This document shows, piece after piece, positions 1,101 to 3,219 of a DNA stretch of 21,538 nt. The stretch comes from a virus. The position numbers and the translations under genes are program-made. The notes under the pieces are model-generated. The model worked only from the letters and a program-made list of their open reading frames with translations. It was not told the DNA's origin and did not search any database. Where the stretch lies: IMG/VR virus record IMGVR_UViG_3300030388_001475, positions 1 through 21,538 of that record; one strand, given 5' to 3'. Position 1 is the stretch's first letter. Every line of letters starts with the position of its first letter.

Positions 1101-1496
1101 ATGGAGTTAGAATTTTTAATAAAAAAAGTAAATCAACATTTTAACGTTGATATTTCACTAAATTCAAGAAAACGCCGGGATGTAATGTCCCGCGCAGTAT
1201 TTTATTGGTTTGCACGAGAAAAAACCGGACACACACTACAACGAATTGGTTCAATTGTTAATAGGGACCATTCTTCGGTTGTTTATTCAATGCAAAATTT
1301 TGATAATTGGGTTAATTCCGATTTGCATTTTAAAAATGAGTTTGAAAAATTAGAAGTGTTGCTTTTTAACGAGATTAGCGTTGAAAAACTAACAGAAGAA
1401 AAATTGTTATTAAAATATAAATTTCTTAAAATTGCAAATGAAATATTAACGGATGAGGTTTTAAATTTAAAAAAACAATTAAAAAATAAGAAATGA
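1101..1496 (+). CDS. DnaA domain IV-like DNA-binding protein
   Basis: Residues about 18-68 look like DnaA domain IV, the helix-turn-helix part that binds DnaA boxes. The segment R55-D-H-S-S-V-V-Y-S matches the family signature RDHTTVLHA, and the preceding helix (RAVFYWFAREKTGHTLQRIG) matches the usual LxRELTGxSLPEIG pattern. There is no AAA+ ATPase domain. Instead residues 95-131 form a Lys/Glu/Leu-rich probable coiled coil that could mediate dimerisation. The protein may bind DnaA boxes in the phage origin, or compete with host DnaA for its sites or dnaA promoter; both are inference. It sits between two nucleases in the early operon. Confidence 0.8.
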   Translation: MELEFLIKKVNQHFNVDISLNSRKRRDVMSRAVFYWFAREKTGHTLQRIGSIVNRDHSSVVYSMQNFDNWVNSDLHFKNEFEKLEVLLFNEISVEKLTEEKLLLKYKFLKIANEILTDEVLNLKKQLKNKK

Positions 1497-2188: not shown

Positions 2189-2196
2189 TATATTTG
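2189..2196 (+). promoter_or_regulatory. Promoter -7 element TATATTTG
   Basis: TATATTTG is a perfect match to the Bacteroidota -7 consensus TAnnTTTG. No clear TTG lies 17-23 bases upstream, so the -33 element is weak. Transcription would start at about 2200-2203, at the foot of the hairpin described next, giving a structured leader of roughly 95 bases ahead of the initiator gene at 2296. Confidence 0.6.
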
Positions 2197-2282
2197 TTGT
2201 GATATTGTCGTGGATATCGTAAAAAAAATTAATGGAATCCTATTGATGAAGCGCCCGCGACCGCTGAATTGATAGGGTTTTA
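2197..2282 (+). ncRNA. Structured leader RNA with two hairpins and a predicted kissing-loop contact
   Basis: Hairpin 1 pairs 2197-2205 with 2214-2222 (9 bp, two G-U pairs) around the loop TGTCGTGG (2206-2213). Hairpin 2 pairs 2233-2247 with 2268-2282 (15 bp, five G-U pairs), then a tandem GA/GA internal loop (2248-2249 with 2266-2267), then AGCG (2250-2253) with CGCT (2262-2265) around the loop CCCGCGAC (2254-2261). GTCGTGG (2207-2213) in loop 1 pairs with CCGCGAC (2255-2261) in loop 2 over 7 bp with one G-U. The many G-U pairs favour a + strand RNA over a DNA cruciform. The 3' arm is followed by T-rich DNA, so hairpin 2 could also act as an attenuator. No known family was recognised. Confidence 0.6.
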
Positions 2283-2295
2283 CTTTTATTAAAAT

Positions 2296-3219
2296 ATGGA
2301 AATAAACAAAATTTACAAACCAAAGAAATTTTCAAGATTTACAATTGTACCTAATAATATTTTTAGGCACAAAGAAATATCAGCAAGTGCAACCGGTTTA
2401 TATTGTTGGCTTTTTTCACATGATGCAAAAACGGAAATGACGGTTCAATTTATATGTGGCCATTTTAAAGACGGAAAAGACGCCATTAATAAACGAATAA
2501 AAGAATTAATAAAAGAAGGTTTTTTAGTTCGTAAGGAGTTAAGAACGGGTGGAAAATTTGCCGGTTATAATTATTATTTAAACGATAAGCCTAAGAAAAT
2601 AACCGCAACCGGAAAAACCGTAACCGGAAAAACCGCGGCGGTAAAACCGGACCCGGTTAATCCGCAACAAAGTAATACTATAAACACTAATATAATAACT
2701 AATAAAAGAAATACTAAAGTACAAACAACTATAAAATCAAAAACGCCATTATACAATGAAATGATAATTAAGGCATTTCCGCATTTTATAAAATTATTTC
2801 CTAATCAATATAAACCAAAAGGCGAAACACAAAAAAATAAATGGTTGGATTGTTTAGATAAAATACAAAGAATTGATAAATATGATTTAAGGGATGTTTA
2901 CGAGGTTACAAAATCACTTCGAAATGATGACTTTTGGCAAACTAATTTTTTAAGTATTTTAAAATTTAGAAATTTAGATAAAAACGGTATTAAATATATT
3001 GATAGATTTATGTTAAATCAAAAGGCAAAAACAAAACCCGTTGGATATTCAAAAGTTAAAGGAATTATTGAATACTTTATTTATAATAGTCCGGCCGACG
3101 GAAATAAAGAATTAGGCGCAAAAACAAAAGGCGGTCAATTATTTGAATTTCATATTAAACAATTAATGCACACAAACGAATTTAATGAATTAAAAGATTA
3201 TGTAATTAAAAATAAATAA
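2296..3219 (+). CDS. Replication initiator / helicase-loader-type protein with N-terminal winged helix
   Basis: Residues about 10-95 look like the N-terminal winged-helix domain of phage replisome organisers: a PNNIFRHKEISASATGLYCWLFS opening, a recognition helix region around GKDAINKRIKELIKEGFL, and a wing ending in YNYYLND. Residues about 96-150 are a low-complexity Thr/Lys/Asn linker with TGKT repeats. Residues 151-307 hold a helical C-terminal domain. Its DDFWQTNFLSILKFRN segment resembles the conserved Trp-Phe-Leu-Leu patch of DnaD or lambda O-type C-terminal regions that recruit the helicase. The likely role is binding the origin and loading the primase-helicase encoded at 4040. The linker DNA carries GC-rich repeats that may be the origin. 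Confidence 0.7.
   Translation: MEINKIYKPKKFSRFTIVPNNIFRHKEISASATGLYCWLFSHDAKTEMTVQFICGHFKDGKDAINKRIKELIKEGFLVRKELRTGGKFAGYNYYLNDKPKKITATGKTVTGKTAAVKPDPVNPQQSNTINTNIITNKRNTKVQTTIKSKTPLYNEMIIKAFPHFIKLFPNQYKPKGETQKNKWLDCLDKIQRIDKYDLRDVYEVTKSLRNDDFWQTNFLSILKFRNLDKNGIKYIDRFMLNQKAKTKPVGYSKVKGIIEYFIYNSPADGNKELGAKTKGGQLFEFHIKQLMHTNEFNELKDYVIKNK
2601..2658 (+). repeat. Iteron-like repeat cluster inside the initiator gene, candidate replication origin
   Basis: AACCGGAAAAACCG occurs twice in tandem (2607-2620 and 2622-2635) with a 15-base period. It is followed by the inverted repeat ACCGC-G-GCGGT (2632-2642) and by AACCGG-AC-CCGGTT (2645-2658). The cluster is GC-rich in an AT-rich genome, and 2659-2750 immediately downstream is very AT-rich and could unwind. 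Initiator-binding repeats inside the initiator gene linker followed by an AT-rich stretch is the lambda O/ori arrangement. A coding repeat (TGKT) alone could also produce the tandem copies, but it would not require the palindromes. Confidence 0.5.

Follow-up and report, generated by a model that had tools for sequence, protein, structure and literature searches.

The replication initiator gene of the window, the whole 21,538-base virus record analysed here, is preceded by a leader RNA with two hairpins whose loops are complementary to each other, and comparison of related sequences makes it nearly certain that both hairpins and the loop-loop helix form. We consider it probable that this leader is a promoter-proximal conditional terminator (an attenuator) with an intramolecular kissing-loop fold, which would gate the replication genes. 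At the level of sequence, comparison among phages establishes the two hairpins, the loop-loop helix, a GA/GA or AGUA/GAA module in hairpin 2, a T-tract, the position of a promoter box and the place ahead of a replication operon. The leader of the window lies between a small upstream ORF, which ends at 2177, and the gene at 2296–3219 on the plus strand, which encodes an HTH_36/DnaD-like helicase loader, the replication initiator. The latter is followed, in this order, by a PDDEXK nuclease gene, a gene of unknown function and a primase-helicase gene.

Architecture of the leader

The −7 promoter element TATATTTG at 2189–2196 (plus strand) fits TAnnTTTG, as a preliminary description of this DNA had claimed. 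In Flavobacterium johnsoniae the G of the −7 element lies at −5, according to PMC6847099, and transcription of the leader is therefore predicted to start at 2201, which, given the 4-nt gap behind the box, is the first base of hairpin 1. Among the leaders with upstream sequence, TAnnTTTG ends 0–6 nt before hairpin 1 in 21 of 31, compared with 1.1% of random 20-nt windows; 11 of these 21, including the window, have a gap of 4 nt. Several leaders lacking TAnnTTTG have another AT-rich upstream sequence in common.

Hairpin 1 (2201–2218, plus strand) consists of a stem of 2201–2205 paired with 2214–2218 and a loop of 2206–2213, in which 2207–2213 are the kissing bases. It had been described as a 9-bp hairpin from 2197; the inner five pairs stand, while the outer four are by eye unconserved and, with a start at 2201, would be untranscribed. 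An A/T-rich linker (2219–2237; 13–25 nt across 32 leaders) connects it to hairpin 2 (2238–2277). The latter has a lower stem (2238–2246/2269–2277), a 4 × 4 internal loop UGAA/UGAA (2247–2250/2265–2268) with GA (2248–2249) opposite GA (2266–2267), an upper stem (2251–2253/2262–2264) and a loop at 2254–2261. The first pair of the internal loop is possibly U-A in the window and is U-U in the other 22 close leaders. From the preliminary reading of hairpin 2 as 15 bp, a GA/GA step and 4 bp, the GA/GA step holds and the conserved part is reduced to 9 bp, the 4 × 4 loop and 3 bp, the further outer pairs varying by eye in the alignment. Loop 1 (GUCGUGG, 2207–2213) and loop 2 (CCGCGAC, 2255–2261) are complementary over 7 bp including one G-U, with four Watson-Crick pairs in a row. 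Folded as a single sequence without the loop-loop helix, the leader reaches −27.2 kcal/mol (z −2.94), and 1 of 200 shuffles is as good.

Hairpin 2 is followed by a T-rich tract TTTTACTTTTATT (2278–2290, plus strand), which is absent from the preliminary description and resembles the tail of an intrinsic terminator. In the 32 leaders segmented by hand, 13 of them from the close family, the first 10 nt after hairpin 2 hold 7–9 T without exception; the tract of the window is the most broken among them, with a longest run of 4 T. As a background, 4.8% of GG dinucleotides in low-GC loci have at least 7 T behind them. All 32 leaders have the form of an intrinsic terminator, namely a lower stem of at least seven pairs and then a T-tract (the stem of L252 excepted). 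A terminator consensus scan, whose rule was a stem with a loop of 3–8 and no internal loop, missed hairpin 2 of the window and yielded no excess of terminator-like sites over shuffles.

The internal loop of hairpin 2 is GA opposite GA in 23 of the 32 leaders, AGUA opposite GAA in seven and neither in two (lillamy and phi46:3). We take these modules to be tandem sheared G-A and loop-E (bulged-G) modules, respectively. In L252 (3883–3990) and L234 (near 3900), the sides of an AGUA/GAA-like internal loop are exchanged between the strands; L252 is counted among the seven.

Covariation and distribution among phages

A search with the initiator protein gave 59 loci in viral contigs; the upstream sequence of 30 was looked at, and the leader is present in 28 of these loci, found by protein alone, and missing in L036 and L037. 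A pattern for hairpin 2 gave 44 stretches, from which seven (L184, L193, L199, L203, L206, L214 and L220) were judged chance matches from their context, and all 37 kept also passed a later regular expression. The alignment A1, with 23 distinct leaders including that of the window, was built from the protein and pattern searches. Standard pairs fill 94.4% of its cells, against a mean of 89.7 in 500 shuffles; double-sided changes occur at 8 pairs against 3.2 and in 25 cells against 5.3, and none of the 500 shuffles equalled A1 on paired cells, double-change pairs or double-change cells. When the 3′ partners are slid by 1–3 columns, pairing falls to 28–60%. All five stem pairs of hairpin 1 have changed on both sides, with 91.1% of the cells paired.

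In A1, all 161 cells of the loop-loop helix are paired, which bears out the complementarity that had been read from the window. Two of its seven pairs covary (C-G/U-A and C-G/U-A/A-U/U-G), and five never vary. This invariance is partly by choice, because the hairpin-2 pattern and the regular expression fix five of the seven pairs; the two covarying columns were free on both sides. With a free loop, the pattern gave 38 stretches, all already known except L224, whose loops are GUAACGG (loop 1) and CCGUUAC (loop 2), which adds a double-sided change at a pair that had so far been invariant. The stems of the 32 leaders, counted without the lower stem of L252, hold 497 Watson-Crick, 54 G-U, no A-C and 2 other cells; the plus-strand RNA is therefore the functional strand, in agreement with the earlier assignment. 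The compensated stems and loop-loop helix across the 23 leaders also support the folded leader RNA that the preliminary description had placed ahead of the initiator.

Distant leaders in the same place in other phage groups were found by pattern and protein searches. With the covariance model built on A1, L059 scores 43 bits (E 1.1e-5; loops GAGUCUC/GAGACUC). The loop pairs are GCUCUCAC/GUGAGAGC in L236, GCUUCCAC/GUGGAAGC in L258, CUUCCAAC/GUUGGAAG in L257, GUAGCGG/CCGCUAC in L244 and GGGCAU/AUGCCC in L242. The query proteins of L228, L231 and L232 are 99–100% identical to that of L228, yet the three have different loop pairs, CCUCCC/GGGAGG, GAUACCAC/GUGGUAUC and GACACCAC/GUGGUGUC, respectively. 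Cultured phages of Cellulophaga, Flavobacterium, Polaribacter, Olleya and Croceibacter also carry the leader, with the loop pairs CUUCUGAC/GUCAGAAG in Cellulophaga phi18:3, CUCUCACAA/UUGUGAGAG in phi46:3, phi13:2 and phi19:3, GUGGUGG/CCACCAC in Olleya Harreka_1, GUGAGACG/CGUCUCAC in lillamy and its kin, and GUGAGAAG/CUUCUCAC in morran. The change from lillamy to morran is compensated, as are the loop differences between the close relatives L002/L003 and L231/L232.

The loop pairs read by hand have 6–9 Watson-Crick bp in 24 of 26 cases, and their mean Watson-Crick match is 7.0 for cognate against 2.73 for non-cognate loops, with none of 100,000 reassignments reaching the observed sum. Machine-folded loops of 25 distinct leaders give a cognate sum of 156 against 111 for the best of 100,000 permutations; the folding mis-called the loop for L260, L261, L232 and the replication leader of L264, owing to small hairpins within the loop or to a match that began inside hairpin 1, and these rows were kept. 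The exceptions are L261, which has lost most of the loop-loop helix and retains 3–4 bp, L228, in which 6 bp are followed by a mismatch, and the window itself, with its four consecutive Watson-Crick pairs (7 bp when the G-U is included).

Several accepted distant leaders score 19–27 bits with the model (19–43 overall in one set), and scores of up to 25.7 bits arise from partial matches by chance (L206) and of up to 24.8 on reverse strands; since the score alone is insufficient, the weaker leaders were accepted on place, full length and loop complementarity. The pattern matches L226 and L227 were set aside by eye as chance. The only match in genome contigs, from a Deltaproteobacteria MAG, covers the hairpin-2 part alone at 22 bits and was also judged chance; the pattern fits the close family only. 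A 14-base loop pattern gave, among the matches listed in viral contigs, GC-rich noise, and none was used as a leader. When the leader was compared at the nucleotide level with cultured phages, 56 matches came up, all short and weak and none of them spanning most of the query.

A scanner independent of any family required only loops that match over 7 nt, at least 4 bp in the first hairpin, at least 9 bp in the second, and a T-tract. It reported 43 distinct sites in 1.08 Mb of low-GC loci, whereas 0.31 Mb of shuffled sequence gave no site. By place and strand, 34 of the 43 are leaders, close relatives counted in, and nine (L021-, L023-, L040-, L181, L210, L224-, L237, L241- and L270-) are by eye on the wrong strand or inside genes. 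In 27 phage and virus records (1.22 Mb in overlapping pieces) it found 23 distinct sites against 4.4 per shuffle pass (257/58), and 13 with the TAnnTTTG box against 0.2 (12/58); seven of the 23 were set aside by eye, namely those in morran (minus strand), elemo (~16617), P2559S (~14607), crAss001, G011, G007 and G008 (~19303). With a 6-nt match the same records gave 33 sites against 13 per shuffle pass (534/41), and 15 with the box against 0.3 (13/41). Because the scanner demands complementarity, its matches cannot test covariation.

Twelve further cultured Bacteroidota phages, four from primase matches and eight by accession, were chosen regardless of the leader, and six have it before the replication operon: Flavobacterium elemoA, FCOV-F13 and 11b, Polaribacter P12002L, Croceibacter P2559S (a 6-nt loop match, with the box present) and Cellulophaga phi10:1. 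In 11b and phi10:1, the gene that follows was assigned to replication through phrog_19415 and phrog_29280, two families without a known function that are weakly related to primosomal or replication families. In Bacteroides B40-8 a candidate leader precedes an antirepressor gene, and none was accepted in PJN03, Nekkels_2, phi38:1, crAss001 and P12024S. The covariance model alone, at E up to 1, gave matches in six of the 12 records, of which P12002L (62.5 bits) and 11b were accepted; it missed the leaders of elemoA, FCOV-F13, P2559S and phi10:1.

The gene behind the leader is mostly a replication initiator, helicase loader or primosomal protein gene, or a small ORF followed by one, and the initiators are of different families (HTH_36/DnaD-like, DUF6291/phrog_19415, O-like and primosomal, some assigned by eye). 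Exceptions are an HNH endonuclease gene behind the second leader of tooticki and its kin and behind the leader of phi46:3, and, in phi18:3, a small gene preceding a gene for a GTP-binding domain. Two leaders occur in one phage in L264 (312–412 and 1362–1460), one before an HNH endonuclease gene and the other before the replication operon, each loop matching its own partner only.

In 22 relatives with another initiator N-terminus, the 150 nt read hold no leader and the ATG comes right after the promoter region; the covariance model, run on 11 of the 22, gave no good match. In 13 of the 22, exactly 5 nt separate the end of TAnnTTTG from the ATG, so the messages of those relatives would be nearly leaderless. 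The leader is present despite that other N-terminus in L031, L187 and L212, and also in L224; the RNA therefore tracks the promoter position and not strictly one protein domain.

Proposed control of the replication genes

According to the attenuator reading, a leader RNA of ~75–100 nt would begin at the base of hairpin 1 or close to it, and hairpin 2 would be an intrinsic terminator between the promoter and the phage replication genes. Pairing of the two loops over 6–9 bp would lock the leader in a compact, closed-ended fold. Most transcripts would end at hairpin 2. Read-through would depend on the state in which the kissing complex is found and would switch the initiator on; the complex might be opened by a phage or host factor recognising the fold or by changed co-transcriptional folding. 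From the form of hairpin 2 we infer that it terminates transcription; we propose that this termination is regulated and that the leader controls initiator expression. Among the modes of control listed in the preliminary description, attenuation fits best, because hairpin 2 and the T-tract have the form of an intrinsic terminator and because the ATG lies 11–18 nt beyond this element, as read by eye in close relatives. This distance is too short for another promoter of usual form in the close relatives, and with a terminator between promoter and gene, initiator message from that promoter must read through hairpin 2. No alternative antiterminator pairing or competing fold was seen in the leaders.

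A wider version of the attenuator reading, which we put forward only tentatively, is that one trans factor, or RNA polymerase, reads the common three-dimensional fold (the loop-loop helix with the GA or loop-E module) rather than the sequence and opens replication and other early genes together. Kissing-loop terminators would be a regulon switch common in Bacteroidota phages, and the loops would diversify freely or keep the leaders of co-infecting phages apart.

It is rather unlikely, if a serious alternative, that the leader is made as a stable trans-acting small RNA of ~75–100 nt with a hairpin at both ends. The promoter box, the 5′ hairpin and the terminator-like hairpin do resemble a complete small RNA gene, and the fold would protect both ends of the RNA. 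The genes behind it would have to be expressed by leak or from elsewhere, and in close relatives the space from hairpin 2 to the ATG has no room for a promoter of usual form; moreover, the loops differ so widely among phages that they offer no common target sequence, and from phage to phage the RNA is mostly kept ahead of replication genes.

Less probable again is a copy-number or exclusion control, in which the loops of the terminated leader pair with nascent leaders of the same phage and raise termination, like plasmid antisense RNAs, so that the loops mark incompatibility groups. The place before replication initiators, the compensated loop changes between close relatives and the presence of two leaders with non-matching loops in one genome would all suit such a role. 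However, each molecule carries both partners and would thus satisfy its own pairing, and compensated drift under a purely structural role yields the same pattern. By eye, no conserved reverse-strand TAnnTTTG box for a counter-transcript was seen in the window and one relative. In addition, tooticki6-1, which has two leaders, is called lytic in PMC7077304; this counts against copy control and also means that lysogenic immunity, which we disfavour, is not the general role. Of 13 records, two match an integrase profile; seven of the 13 are virus contigs and possibly fragments.

We think it very improbable that the folded leader modifies RNA polymerase in cis, in the manner of put or nut sites, so that terminators, its own included, are ignored. 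The position at the predicted 5′ end of the transcript would agree with this, and more than one leader of the same architecture per genome would suit a common factor, but termination accounts better for the T-tract behind hairpin 2.

Two other options of the preliminary description fared less well than attenuation. Ligand sensing found no positive support, as no conserved pocket beyond the internal-loop module of hairpin 2 and no alternative fold was seen in the leaders, and the loop sequences are variable. A role for the RNA at the origin is less likely: there are phages with related initiators that have no leader, and copies of the leader also precede HNH endonuclease and other genes; the iteron-like repeats of the window (described below) sit inside the initiator gene rather than in the leader. 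A leader peptide was rejected: in the close family, as judged by eye, hairpin 2 is crossed by an ATG frame of 8 codons, and this frame is shortened or absent in the distant leaders read in the same way (L059/L260, L258 and phi18:3). A kink-turn (box C/D-like UGAUGA...CUGA) was rejected because the flanking pairs, where U-G and G-U change to U-A, A-U and G-C, pair as a straight stem, and a hammerhead core was ruled out by eye.

Known systems and neighbouring elements

In the rep attenuators of pT181/pIP501-type plasmids, a separate antisense RNA pairs with the leader. The present leader resembles them in having an intrinsic terminator, here by sequence form, in an initiator leader and in the involvement of hairpin loops, and differs in that both partner loops lie within one leader. 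The CI RNA immunity of phage P4 works through a processed RNA that acts in trans, and its role is in lysogeny. It has in common with our case premature termination (predicted here) in the leader of a phage replication operon and complementary leader segments; unlike in P4, the loop-loop pairing here is inside one leader and occurs also in a phage called lytic. The order of promoter, short terminated leader (again predicted here) and operon recalls the lambda pR′ leader with 6S RNA and Q antitermination, for which we know of no kissing hairpins. Similarly, HK022 put RNA has two hairpins right after a phage promoter, and to our knowledge these are not terminators and have no loop pairing. RNA I and RNA II of ColE1 kiss through whole loops over ~7 bp in replication control, in that case between two RNAs and not inside one leader.

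The preliminary description recognised no known family, and Rfam 15 gave the same answer for the leaders searched. The whole window has no match at gathering threshold, with the three best permissive matches at 2100–2360 falling far below it, and 12 further sources with leaders or candidates gave only DUF805b RNA and tRNA, both away from the leaders; the DUF805b RNA lies in Flavobacterium phage morran (L270, 57–91; 52 bits). No description of the leader was found in open-licence literature on kissing-loop terminators in phages, Bacteroidetes RNA motifs, P4 CI RNA, put RNA, pT181 and Cellulophaga phage transcriptomes, or in passages of PMC8040213. Attenuators and terminated leaders as such are known; the kissing-loop architecture and its spread in Bacteroidota phages were not found described. 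The leader adds an RNA architecture in which a terminator-like hairpin kisses the first hairpin of the transcript, with clear covariation, and it points to an undescribed replication control common to Flavobacteriia phages with initiators of several families. Since cultured hosts exist, direct testing is possible, and Bacteroidota genetics would benefit from a terminator gated by programmable loop pairs.

Several other elements were seen near the leaders. A separate small gene of the window (1101–1496) has the DnaA C-terminal DNA-binding domain as its sole Pfam match, and a DnaA-annotated gene is also found upstream of the leader in Cellulophaga phages phi18:3, phi46:3, phi13:2 and phi19:3. 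Within the initiator gene of the window, 2595–2665 contain four 27-nt copies of a AACCGGAAAAACCG-type repeat with a spacing of 14–15 nt, similar to iterons; by analogy with the lambda O gene, where origin repeats lie inside the initiator gene, they are a candidate replication origin. A second conserved small hairpin, GGUAAUCUUAAAACC or close to it, is located just before the ATG of the small ORF following the leader (L262, 3275–3312; L264, 1465–1500; L270, 1520–1560; L263, 1460–1510; L356, 10340–10384), and is possibly a translational operator. The small ORF behind it belongs to phrog_33177 in both cases tested, L262 and L356.
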